This document shows positions 17,332 to 21,223 of a stretch of DNA of 64,000 nucleotides, one piece after another. The DNA is from Synechococcus sp. LA31. Its GTDB lineage: Bacteria; Cyanobacteriota; Cyanobacteriia; PCC-6307; Cyanobiaceae. Every line of letters starts with the position of its first letter. The stretch's first letter is position 1. The stretch covers positions 806,001 to 870,000 of the forward strand of contig NZ_CP075523.1 of the NCBI RefSeq assembly GCF_018502385.1, read 5' to 3'. The notes under the pieces are model-generated. The model worked only from the letters and a program-made list of their open reading frames with translations, was not told the origin of the DNA and did not search any database. The position numbers and the translations under genes are program-made.

Positions 17332-17847
17332 TCAGGATGCTCCCACTTGCAGGCCGGTCACCGAGCCGTTGACACGGAAAGTTGAGCCCTCAAGTTCCAC
17401 CGGGGCGCCGATCTTCAGGTTCTGGTTACCGAAGACCACACCATCGGCCCCCTTGCGCCCCTCTCCTTTAAGCACGAAGCGCACATCGAGGCTGGGGAAC
17501 TGGTCTTGGTTGGGATCCACAGCGCTCACCACCCGGCCGTCAGGCAGCACCGCTGATAAGCGGCGCTGTAAGGGGATCACCTGCTCCACGGGCACGCTCC
17601 CGTGCGGTTGATTGCGAATCACAATTGCCACCTTGCCGGCATCGCGGGCTGCATCCACCACGCTGGCGGGGTTGGCCACCGGCACACCCCGCACATCAAC
17701 CATCACGGTCACTGGCACCAAGCCTCCAGTGGCCCGGGCCACGGTGCCGCTCAGCTTCGGGCTCCACACAACCCCCGCGGCCGCCAGCAACACCGCCGCG
17801 GCAGCTCCCGCATCCACCAAGGAGAAACGACGCGACGATCCGGCCAT
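17332..17847 (-). CDS. DUF4330 membrane-anchored protein
   Basis: A 171-aa protein with one N-terminal transmembrane segment (about residues 10-29, DAGAAAAVLLAAAGVVW) and an otherwise soluble, probably periplasmic or thylakoid-lumenal domain. It fits the cyanobacterial DUF4330 pattern: PVTVMVDVRGVPVANP, then GKVAIVIRNQPHG, and a C-terminal GAPVELEGSTFRVNGSV. Function is unknown. It is immediately upstream of dacB (one base between stop and GTG start), so a link with envelope maintenance is suggested by position only. Confidence 0.82.
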   Translation of the reverse strand: MAGSSRRFSLVDAGAAAAVLLAAAGVVWSPKLSGTVARATGGLVPVTVMVDVRGVPVANPASVVDAARDAGKVAIVIRNQPHGSVPVEQVIPLQRRLSAVLPDGRVVSAVDPNQDQFPSLDVRFVLKGEGRKGADGVVFGNQNLKIGAPVELEGSTFRVNGSVTGLQVGAS

Positions 17848-17898: not shown

Positions 17899-18534
17899 TC
17901 AGCGGGCTGCCTCTTCCAGGGCCTCCAGCTGGGCCTCTCGGTCGGGGCGGGTTTCGAAACTGCAGACATGGCGATAGCCATCGGGATCACACCGGTAGAA
18001 CTGCCAGTCGTCTGGATAGGTGCGGCGCAGAGCACCTTCAGCCGTCGGGATCAATCCATAGGCCGCCTGCCATTCCGAGAGAAAGCCCTTGCGACGTTCA
18101 CGGGCCACGGTGCCGATCCCAATCGCGGCGTCTTCGAGGCGGCCATTGATCATCACCAGCGAGCCGCGATGCTGCGCGCAGAGGGATTCCACCTGCTCGT
18201 AGTCGGCGGGAGTAGGCGCAGCCAACAACACCAAACCATCGCTGCCGCCATCGGCCTGTTGCAGCCGCAGTAGATCTCCCAGACCGAGCAATTGCGAAGC
18301 TTGCTCAGGTGCATCCCGCTTGGCTAATGCCGTTGCACCAGCATCAGGAAAGAGCAGGCGGGCTTCCGGATGAGCGGGGGTAAGGGCCGCCAGCTGCCGC
18401 AGGGCCACCGGCAGGATGCGCAAGCCCTCAAAGCGCATCTCCACAGTCCAGAGACCCTTGGTCTGGCTGGCCAGGGCCGCCTGCACGGCTGCATGGGCCT
18501 CGGTTTCGGCGCTGCGCAGGTCGGCGGGGAGCAT
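17899..18534 (-). CDS. DUF1995 family protein
   Basis: A 211-aa soluble protein resembling the DUF1995 family of cyanobacteria and plastids. Visible features: an N-terminal helical region (LRSAETEAHAAVQAALASQ), a VEMRFEGLRILPVALR strand-helix, a central LLAAPTPADYEQVESLC, and a C-terminal part typical of the family, RRTYPDDWQFYRCDPDGY. Plant members have been linked to photosystem or chloroplast assembly, but the biochemical role here is unknown. It sits 24 bases after the cysteine desulfurase and 51 before the DUF4330 gene on the same strand. Confidence 0.82.
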   Translation of the reverse strand: MLPADLRSAETEAHAAVQAALASQTKGLWTVEMRFEGLRILPVALRQLAALTPAHPEARLLFPDAGATALAKRDAPEQASQLLGLGDLLRLQQADGGSDGLVLLAAPTPADYEQVESLCAQHRGSLVMINGRLEDAAIGIGTVARERRKGFLSEWQAAYGLIPTAEGALRRTYPDDWQFYRCDPDGYRHVCSFETRPDREAQLEALEEAAR

Positions 18535-18558: not shown

Positions 18559-19746
18559 CTAAAGCGCAGCTCGGGCCCGCTCGAGTGCAGCGGGGAACTG
18601 CTCCAACAGCTCCGCACCGTGCCATGGGCCCAGACTGACGCGCAAACCCGAGGCGGCAGCAGCAGGGCCGTAGCCCATCGCTGCAAGGACTGGGCTGGCG
18701 GGAGAGCCGCTGCTGCTGCAGGCCGATCCACTGCTGCAAGCAAAACCCTGCCGCCAAAGGGCTCCCACCAGCTGCCGCCCGGCGAGCCAATCGCCGCCTG
18801 GATGTCTCACAAGCAAGCTGAGGTGATGGGGGAGGCGATCTGCCCACCCCGATTGGATTGGATTGGGGCCGCTCAACTCCAAGCCAGGCTGTTCCAAGAG
18901 GCGCATCAGCAACTGATCGCGCCAGTGCCTCGCCGGGTCGTTGCCGCCGTGAGCATCCAGCCGCTGCTGACAGAGGCGGAGGGCAGCCTCAAACCCTGCA
19001 ACCAGCGCAACGGGTTCCGTGCCCGCCCGCAGGCCCCCTTCCTGGCCTCCCCCCCCGATGCAGGCCTGTAGCTTCACCCCTTCAGCCACCAGCAGAGCCC
19101 CCACTCCACGGGGTCCCTGAATTTTGTGCGCCGCCAGGCTGAGCAGATCCACCGGAAGCAGGTCCATCGCAATGGGCCGGTGGCCAAGGATCTGCACCGC
19201 ATCCACATGCAACAAAACACCGGCTTGGCGGCACAGACCGCCAATGGCCTCAATGGCTTGAACGGTGCCGACCTCGCTCTGACCCCAGATCACCGATACC
19301 AAGCGCGTGGGAGGTTCCAGCCAGCGCTGCAGCTCCTGCAAATCGAGACTGCCCTCGCGATTCACCGGCAGCAGCTGGAGCTGCCAACCACGCCGCTGCA
19401 AGGCCTCTGCAGCCGCCCGCGTGGCGGGGTGCTCCACAGCGGAGATCAACAACCGCGGTCGCGCTGCCCCACCCTCCAGGGTTGGTGCAGCGCCTAGAAG
19501 AGCCAGATGGATGGCTTCACTCCCTCCTGACGTGATCACTAGCCGGGACTGCCTGCAGCCCAGGAGCTCGCCAAGGCCCTGCCGTGCACGCTCCAGCTGC
19601 TCAGCTGCCGCAAGGCCGAAACCATGCAGGCTGGAGGGATTGCCCCAGGCCTCGGCCTGCACAGCTGCCATGGCTGCTGCCACCTCGCTGGCTACGGGTG
19701 TTGTGGCACAGCAGTCGAGATAACCGGAGAGCGGCAGTGGCGCCAT
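18559..19746 (-). CDS. Cysteine desulfurase (NifS/IscS-like)
   Basis: PLP enzyme of aminotransferase class V, 395 aa, that takes sulfur from cysteine for Fe-S clusters or thio-cofactors. Evidence: YLDCCATTPVASEVAAAM and WGNPSSLHGFG at the N-terminus, the PLP-lysine motif SLAAHKIQGPRGVGAL, the RAGTEPVALVAGFEAAL block, and the catalytic loop cysteine in GSACSSSGSP, characteristic of group I (IscS/NifS) rather than SufS. The C-terminal half is somewhat Ala/Leu-rich. It starts five bases from the dapF stop, so is probably co-transcribed with dapF. Confidence 0.92.
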   Translation of the reverse strand: MAPLPLSGYLDCCATTPVASEVAAAMAAVQAEAWGNPSSLHGFGLAAAEQLERARQGLGELLGCRQSRLVITSGGSEAIHLALLGAAPTLEGGAARPRLLISAVEHPATRAAAEALQRRGWQLQLLPVNREGSLDLQELQRWLEPPTRLVSVIWGQSEVGTVQAIEAIGGLCRQAGVLLHVDAVQILGHRPIAMDLLPVDLLSLAAHKIQGPRGVGALLVAEGVKLQACIGGGGQEGGLRAGTEPVALVAGFEAALRLCQQRLDAHGGNDPARHWRDQLLMRLLEQPGLELSGPNPIQSGWADRLPHHLSLLVRHPGGDWLAGRQLVGALWRQGFACSSGSACSSSGSPASPVLAAMGYGPAAAASGLRVSLGPWHGAELLEQFPAALERARAAL

Positions 19747-19751
19747 GGCGC

Positions 19752-20936
19752 TCAGCCGCTGAGGCCGGTGTCGCGCTCAAAGCGGGCGCGGGTGCGCGAT
19801 TCGAGCGAGTTGGTGGCCAGCGAGACCAGATCATCCAAAGAACTGCCGCTCAGCAGAGCCTCCACGCGGGCACGGGCCTCTGCGCTAGGGCAGTGCTCCG
19901 GTCGGATGCAGCCGTTGGTGCACACCGTGGCGCAGTCGATCTCCGGTTCGACCTGCTGTTGGCTGGCAGCGGGGGTGGGAGCTACGGAATCCAGACGAGG
20001 AGCCTGAGTGCTGGCTTGCTGGCGAGCATCAGCCACGGCGCGGGGATCGGGAATCAAGCCGTCAAACACGTGCTCAGCAGGGCCATCCATGAACACCTTG
20101 CTGCTGCCCGCATCCCAATGGATCTGCAGTGGCCCCCCCGGCAAATCGAGGCGGGCCTGGCGCTGACAAAGTCCAAGGCTGTGGCAAGCCACCAGCGTGG
20201 CGCAGGCTCCTGTGCCGCAGGCCAGGGTGGGGCCCGCGCCGCGTTCCCACACCCGCATCACCAGATGATCCGGGGCCATCACCTGCACGAAGTGCACGTT
20301 GGTTTTGGCGGGGAAGGCCGGATGCCGCTCCAGCAGCGCCCCGAAGCGCTCCAAGTCGATTTCGTCCACAAGCGGCACCGGAATCACCACGTGGGGATTA
20401 CCCATGCCTGCGGCAGCAACGGCAAACACCTCTCCATCCACCTGCAACTCGCCCTGAGGAAGACCCGCAGATCCCAGCTCAAGGGTGGTGGGCACCTGCT
20501 CGGGTTGAAGGAATGGGGCGCCCATGTCCACCCGGATGGTGCCATCGGGCAACAGCTCGGGCACGATTCGGCCCGCCAGCGTGTCGATCTGCCACGTGCG
20601 ACCGGCCCCATCGCCATCGCGATCCGCCAGGAAACGCGCCAGGCAGCGGATGCCGTTGCCACACATCTCCGGCTCGGTGCCATCGGCGTTGAAGATGCGC
20701 ATGCGCAGTTCTCCACCGTTGTTAGGGGGCAGCGCCAGGATCACGCCGTCGCCGCCGACACCGAAGCGGCGGTCGCAGAGCTCAACCACCAGAGCAGGTG
20801 TGAGGCCAAACACGAACTCCGAGTCGGTGGCGCTGCGGCCATCCAGCATCAGAAAGTCGTTCCCAAGACCCTGGTACTTGCTGAAGCTCAGTTCACCCTG
20901 GAGGTTGTTGAACTGGCTCTTGCTGGGGGACGACAC
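19752..20936 (-). CDS. dapF: Diaminopimelate epimerase with a C-terminal Cys-containing extension
   Basis: Interconverts LL- and meso-diaminopimelate for lysine and peptidoglycan. The catalytic pair is present: Cys92 in EMCGNGIRCLARF and Cys240 in TLACGTGACATLVAC; the substrate loop GNPHVVIPV is also clear. The start is a GTG at 20936. A normal DapF is about 280 aa; this protein is 394. Residues about 285-394 form an extension: a linker rich in Ala, Gln and Pro, then four cysteines spaced C-x3-C-x3-C-x5-C (335, 339, 343, 349) in DCATVCTNGCIRPEHC, and a helical end with SLDDLVSLATNSLE. The Cys set could bind metal or an Fe-S cluster; that is inference. Confidence 0.93.
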   Translation of the reverse strand: MSSPSKSQFNNLQGELSFSKYQGLGNDFLMLDGRSATDSEFVFGLTPALVVELCDRRFGVGGDGVILALPPNNGGELRMRIFNADGTEPEMCGNGIRCLARFLADRDGDGAGRTWQIDTLAGRIVPELLPDGTIRVDMGAPFLQPEQVPTTLELGSAGLPQGELQVDGEVFAVAAAGMGNPHVVIPVPLVDEIDLERFGALLERHPAFPAKTNVHFVQVMAPDHLVMRVWERGAGPTLACGTGACATLVACHSLGLCQRQARLDLPGGPLQIHWDAGSSKVFMDGPAEHVFDGLIPDPRAVADARQQASTQAPRLDSVAPTPAASQQQVEPEIDCATVCTNGCIRPEHCPSAEARARVEALLSGSSLDDLVSLATNSLESRTRARFERDTGLSG

Positions 20937-20980: not shown

Positions 20981-21223
20981 ATGGGGAGCAGCATGGAGAA
21001 CCGAGGCTCCCTGTTCGACACCTCGCAGCCTGGAATCCGTCTGCTGCAGAGCTGGATCCGCAGCCGCACCAACCTGGCCGTGCAGTTGCTCGATGGCAGC
21101 AGCGTGAACGGGATCCCGCGTTGGGTGGATAACGAGTATTTAGCGCTCGAGCCTGAAGCGGGTGGTGAATTGCTGCTGGTGGCCCGCCAGGCCATGGCCC
21201 TGATCCGGCCGTTGTTGTCATAG
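20981..21223 (+). CDS. hfq: Cyanobacterial Hfq-like Sm protein
   Basis: An 80-aa Sm-fold protein. The core PGIRLLQSWIRSRTNLAVQLLDG, then a second strand set VNGIPRWVDNEYLALEP and the last ALIRPLL match the divergent cyanobacterial Hfq, in which the classical Hfq signature is not kept. In cyanobacteria Hfq affects motility and phototaxis and lacks the RNA-binding residues of enterobacterial Hfq. The ATG at 20981 has GAGGT seven bases upstream; an ATG at 20993 is also possible. It is divergent from dapF with 44 bases between starts, and 48 bases upstream of leuS. Placement by dapF supports the call. Confidence 0.83.
   Translation: MGSSMENRGSLFDTSQPGIRLLQSWIRSRTNLAVQLLDGSSVNGIPRWVDNEYLALEPEAGGELLLVARQAMALIRPLLS

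Follow-up and report, generated by a model that had tools for sequence, protein, structure and literature searches.

The C-terminal extension of the predicted diaminopimelate epimerase DapF encoded in the window, i.e. the 64,000 nucleotides of DNA that we analysed, is a real and conserved module of two separable parts, a four-cysteine knuckle and a helix, and in most other photosynthetic cyanobacteria sampled this module is a separate protein of 60-80 amino acids. We propose, with a probability of roughly 0.4, that the module is a regulatory or docking part of DapF, made of a dispensable metal or redox knuckle and a conserved helix. The fusion points to DapF, an enzyme of lysine and cell wall synthesis, as a possible partner or target of the small protein.

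The assignment of the enzyme is supported by two profiles: TIGR00652 matches residues 17-294 with 260.9 bits, compared with a curated cut-off of 114.65, and PF01678 matches residues 175-290, again above its curated cut-off. Moreover, the catalytic-type cysteines C92 and C240 are present and are invariant in 50 of 50 alignment rows. With the full catalytic length above the cut-off and both cysteines in place, the protein is predicted to be a member of the DapF equivalog family TIGR00652. It shares the complete catalytic domain with the known DapF proteins and differs from them by about 100 additional C-terminal residues: The DapF proteins of other bacteria and of cyanobacteria outside the family of the window's organism that we examined stop no more than nine residues past the catalytic domain, among them those at the 18 labelled cyanobacterial loci outside this family. 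The preliminary description had placed the end of the catalytic part at about residue 284 and given the extension about 110 residues. The extension is indeed real; its length is closer to 100 residues, since the curated profiles end at residues 290-294. Divergent to dapF, between dapF and leuS, the window contains a small ORF that looks Hfq-like by eye (20981-21223, plus strand), with a counterpart in a Synechococcus elongatus-like locus (L145, 3835-4123).

Features of the dapF region, in window coordinates
Feature	Position	Strand	Basis
dapF, predicted diaminopimelate epimerase of 394 aa with the module fused to its C-terminus	19752..20936	-	ORF and profile matches
Catalytic DapF domain, residues 16-295	20052..20891	-	TIGR00652 (E 1.3e-77); PF01678; PDB DapF matches
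Variable linker, residues 296-334, low confidence in the model	19935..20051	-	length and sequence differ among relatives; pLDDT ~46-64 at residues 311-350
Four-cysteine knuckle C-x3-C-x3-C-x5-C, residues 335-349	19890..19934	-	invariant in 40/40
Helical part with SLDxLVxxAxxSLExR, residues 352-390	19767..19883	-	predicted helices; conserved whether or not the cysteines are present
NifS/IscS-type cysteine desulfurase, gene directly after dapF	18559..19746	-	PF00266; TIGR03402 below cut-off; synteny
DUF1995 protein, syntenic in S. elongatus-like loci	17899..18534	-	PF09353; tblastn
DUF4330 protein, syntenic in S. elongatus-like loci	17332..17847	-	PF14221; tblastn

The anatomy of the module is firmly established. 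The predicted succession of a cysteine motif and a helix was borne out, with the cysteines at positions 335, 339, 343 and 349 and predicted helices at residues 352-364 and 367-390. In the AlphaFold model the catalytic domain is confident and the two helices reach a pLDDT of about 70-78; modelled alone, the module gives a poor result (pLDDT 64). The lack of conservation of the cysteines in close relatives, which had been named as the outcome that would speak against a functional motif, was not observed: All four are invariant in the 40 module sequences of related DapF proteins that were aligned, and it is the more distant members of the family that are devoid of them. The glycine before the third cysteine and parts of the SLDxL..A...R...R pattern are also conserved in these 40 fused modules. 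Since the cysteines are invariant and the rough expectation of finding the motif in a 100-residue tail of such composition is 5e-5, the motif is not a product of chance. It was found in 103 of 104 DapF tails longer than 100 residues (L080 stops before the motif), although many loci repeat the same organisms, so that the genomes behind this number are not all independent. The genome of the window contains a single copy of the extension. Among the variants, one locus (L031, genome G140) has a short tandem repeat, IDCATIDCATIDCATVC, directly before the knuckle, which brings in two additional cysteines, and the proteins of L063 and L067 are lengthened past the helix by SGLDTPGLD-type repeats.

The module does not belong to any described family in the collections that we searched. 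The extension has no match in Pfam or NCBIfam, and six of the stand-alone proteins gave nothing in these databases except one chance match with an E value of 0.2. A profile search of the PDB with the module yielded chance matches only (E of 0.045 or higher), Foldseek with the low-confidence module model found none, and PHROGs gave single-member chance matches only. With one stand-alone protein as the query, no match was found in the collections of phages, plasmids and viral contigs. Likewise, no paper on the DapF fusion or on the small protein was found in the literature searched, which covered few subscription papers. Thus, curated families and structures provide no precedent for metal binding by the module. 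In some genomes the helix had a second match in long ORFs of 410-770 amino acids; by eye these are LpxB-like or RNase R-like, and we regard the matches as chance.

The question raised initially, whether the extension exists as a stand-alone domain elsewhere, can be answered in the affirmative. Across the phylum, a profile of the module had matches in 143 of 386 genomes (at E values up to 0.1, weak matches included). Within the class, a wider profile reached E values of 1e-5 or below in 305 of the 388 genomes sampled; 54 of these belong to the window's family and 251 do not. On 80 genomes of the phylum without a match in the first search, 73 of them from other classes, the wider profile gave three weak partial matches only; the restriction to cyanobacteria was checked within the phylum and in the phage, plasmid and viral collections. 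Outside the window's family, which we infer from named relatives to be the Cyanobiaceae, the matches sit in short ORFs, and the join to DapF was found in this family only. In the 91 stand-alone loci that were read, the cysteine spacing is exactly that of the fused module in 87, three copies, all from one genus (g194 of family f49), have a longer last loop, and one copy is free of cysteines; all four cysteines are hence present in 90 of 91 copies. The cysteine-less copy (L238, G462:C7:27159-27260) retains the helix and a PPKWVMPED tail and so parallels the fused lineages. DapF was found in each of the 80 stand-alone-module genomes checked, of 108, and a comparison of the coordinates placed the small gene next to dapF in one of the 80, the S. 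elongatus-like genome G335. In an analysis of the neighbours at 20 stand-alone loci, no partner was conserved across families; clusters that three or four loci had in common were either mixed or derived from a single family. In genome G323, a second, distant DapF-like match (G323:C83:1885-2634, 37% identity) and the stand-alone module gene are about 10 kb apart.

The gene order in G335 and in G629, the two genomes sampled of a family that appears to be S. elongatus-like as judged from its GCGATCGC repeats and its gene order, suggests how the fusion arose. In G335 (L145), dapF is followed by a frame of 85 codons for the module, the desulfurase gene, a DUF1995 gene, a gene that looks phosphatase-like by eye, a DUF4330 gene and, at a greater distance, a dacB-like gene; the window has the same order except for the phosphatase-like gene. 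The TAG stop codon of dapF in G335 is in phase with the module frame and 12 bases separate it from the ATG; G629 has the same arrangement with a TAA stop codon. Since dapF and the small gene are in the same frame, with no more than one stop codon and 12 bases between them, loss of this stop codon between neighbouring genes is the simplest and most likely route to the fusion. Programmed read-through in the S. elongatus-like genomes is less likely, as the two use different stop codons and the gene downstream starts with an ATG of its own. The small proteins of both genomes keep the P-x-W-V-F-P-E-D tail of the free copies, which the fused modules do not have, and this suggests that the S. elongatus-like state is the ancestral one rather than a later split. 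S. elongatus has been used as an outgroup to the window's clade, in a study in which DapF protein of freshwater picocyanobacteria was reported to increase with proline and glutamate (PMC11851481).

Within the Cyanobiaceae the two parts of the module have had different fates. We selected 30 genomes of the family for a weak or absent module match, so that the following numbers are not frequencies. DapF is present in all 30; 16 keep the helix without the knuckle, six of these with a relic of the fourth cysteine, one (G029) has a decayed tail, and in 13 the protein ends shortly after the catalytic domain. In the Prochlorococcus-type genomes, the module is wholly lost. Each of the 16 cysteine-less genomes matches once, at DapF, and lacks a separate copy. 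In genus g29 the module is apparently decaying, being altered in L167 (G029) and cut by a stop codon in L170 (G071). When 101 DapF catalytic domains are placed on a tree, the character "four cysteines" needs seven changes and "helix only" nine, and the well-supported branches force at least four and at least six, respectively, the exact numbers being unsure because several forks are unresolved, some branches are long and the decayed G029 was scored as a helix. Seven and nine changes were again obtained from a quick tree that left out the non-cyanobacterial rows and the long branches of Prochlorococcus type. The knuckle has thus been lost repeatedly, in several lineages. The mean helix identity is 0.55 among 15 cysteine-less DapF proteins, compared with 0.67 in their catalytic domains, and among nine cysteine-bearing marine-type proteins the values are 0.55 and 0.69. 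Since loss of the knuckle leaves the conservation of the helix unchanged where the catalytic domains have diverged to nearly the same degree, the helix must still do something. On the other hand, the repeated loss of the knuckle and the Prochlorococcus-type genomes without any module indicate that the module is not essential to DapF.

These observations bear on whether the module serves DapF at all. The small protein may have a function unrelated to DapF, and may have been a chance downstream neighbour that became attached when the stop codon was lost and works as it does when alone. This possibility, which we consider doubtful though not far-fetched, agrees with the absence of dapF linkage outside one lineage, with the flexible linker between module and enzyme and with the small genomes that lost the whole module and kept DapF. 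However, if such a passenger needed its knuckle, a constrained helix would be less expected to stay on DapF after the loss of the cysteines in several lineages, and the 16 cysteine-less genomes with their single match at DapF also speak against it. The retention of the helix argues for a function at DapF that is independent of the cysteine site; the position of the small gene, which is not beside dapF outside the S. elongatus-like lineage and has no neighbour common to different families at the 20 loci, argues against a role at DapF.

The four cysteines are kept or lost together, with only the fourth left as a relic in six sequences. That they are invariant, and disappear as a set, speaks for one site, and from this pattern it is plausible that they form a single metal or Fe-S site. 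Alternatively, the cysteines might protect or reset the two catalytic cysteines of DapF by disulfide exchange, as a built-in redoxin-like device without a metal. In the DapF of Corynebacterium glutamicum, the two catalytic cysteines form a reversible, inactivating disulfide (PMC5296763), and in cells that evolve oxygen, an enzyme with four cysteines within 15 residues would suit such a relay. Yet the window module contains no CxxC motif, the retention or nearly complete loss of the whole set fits a ligand set better, and DapF still runs in the cysteine-less lineages. We therefore regard a thiol relay as improbable.

The preliminary description had also drawn attention to the cysteine desulfurase gene five bases on, a possible Fe-S supplier. 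The distance is correct, the ORF starting five bases past the dapF stop codon, and of 63 loci tested, 57 have a desulfurase gene after dapF, separated from it by a gap in 50 and overlapping it in seven; of the six loci without a match, five are on contigs with no more than about 700 bases left and one (L049) is not. The desulfurase gene adjoins dapF just as well in 17 of 17 loci without the cysteine part and in 15 of 15 loci of the family without the module. It also follows dapF at both S. elongatus-like loci. At 17 other cyanobacterial dapF loci outside the family it was next to dapF at none, with just 632-879 bases of downstream room, and of the 20 stand-alone loci, one, in the S. elongatus-like G335, has it nearby, as does a second S. 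elongatus-like locus. Because the adjacency persists where the cysteines are gone, it does not support a link to Fe-S supply, and it is a marker of the gene order of the clade, not of the cysteines. An Fe-S cluster that is loaded by the neighbouring desulfurase, senses the iron or redox state and gates lysine and peptidoglycan synthesis would fit the four cysteines in one stretch and the desulfurase gene that overlaps or lies a few bases away, but is the least probable explanation given the adjacency without cysteines (17/17 and 15/15) and the lack of a desulfurase at 19 of the 20 stand-alone loci.

We thus favor a regulatory or docking part of DapF, which might have come about and might act as follows. 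The ancestral small gene would have stood beside dapF, and the loss of the stop codon would have created the fusion in the Cyanobiaceae. The knuckle would hold one metal ion or cluster (zinc or Fe-S) or serve as a set of redox thiols, with the SLD helix as the docking part. The free protein might bind DapF, or a partner shared with it, in trans, and in the Cyanobiaceae the module would be tethered in cis and tune the activity, stability or placement of DapF; in the lineages without the knuckle, the docking function alone would remain. DapF is a reasonable target because its catalytic cysteines can form an inactivating disulfide, as described for C. glutamicum (PMC5296763). From sequence comparisons, which are indirect evidence, we propose a link between the module and DapF activity. 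A much bolder extension, to which we give little credence, is that the free protein is a phylum-wide metal- or redox-responsive DapF-binding regulator through which the redox or iron state of photosynthesis controls the synthesis of lysine and peptidoglycan; it would have been hard-wired in the Cyanobiaceae by the loss of the stop codon, and several marine-type lineages would have dropped the metal part and kept the dock, perhaps under iron scarcity.

Irrespective of the mechanism, the analysis exposes an unnamed small protein in most of the sampled photosynthetic cyanobacteria whose most conserved feature is the set of four cysteines, and the fusion partner together with the surviving pre-fusion gene order offers a first functional lead for it. 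The natural series of free protein, in-frame neighbours, fusion, loss of the knuckle and loss of the entire module allows a direct test, in S. elongatus and marine Synechococcus, of what the cysteines and the helix do.

Among known systems, the cysteine-rich Fe-S loops of the SoxR and WhiB type have their last cysteine after a five-residue loop (x5-C) as in the module; their spacing and folds are otherwise unlike it, and we take this as a lead only. Two small cyanobacterial proteins with four cysteines were also compared. NblD/NsiR6, with 66 amino acids, a cyanobacteria-wide distribution and four conserved cysteines, starts with a CPVC pair, i.e. C-x2-C (PMC5126843), whereas the cysteines of the fused module and of all 90 cysteine-bearing stand-alone copies begin with C-x3-C. 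NblD was therefore rejected as the identity of the stand-alone protein on its cysteine spacing; the two are different families. CP12, too, is a small four-cysteine protein, and it regulates by binding to proteins, GAPDH and PRK; it carries a cysteine pair at each end (PMC7760959), whereas all four cysteines of the module lie within 15 residues (335-349), and the module has no Pfam match to CP12. Finally, the redox switch of C. glutamicum DapF differs from what we propose, as it uses the two catalytic cysteines and the part of its description available to us mentions no extra module, and resembles it in that a DapF enzyme can be controlled through cysteine oxidation (PMC5296763).
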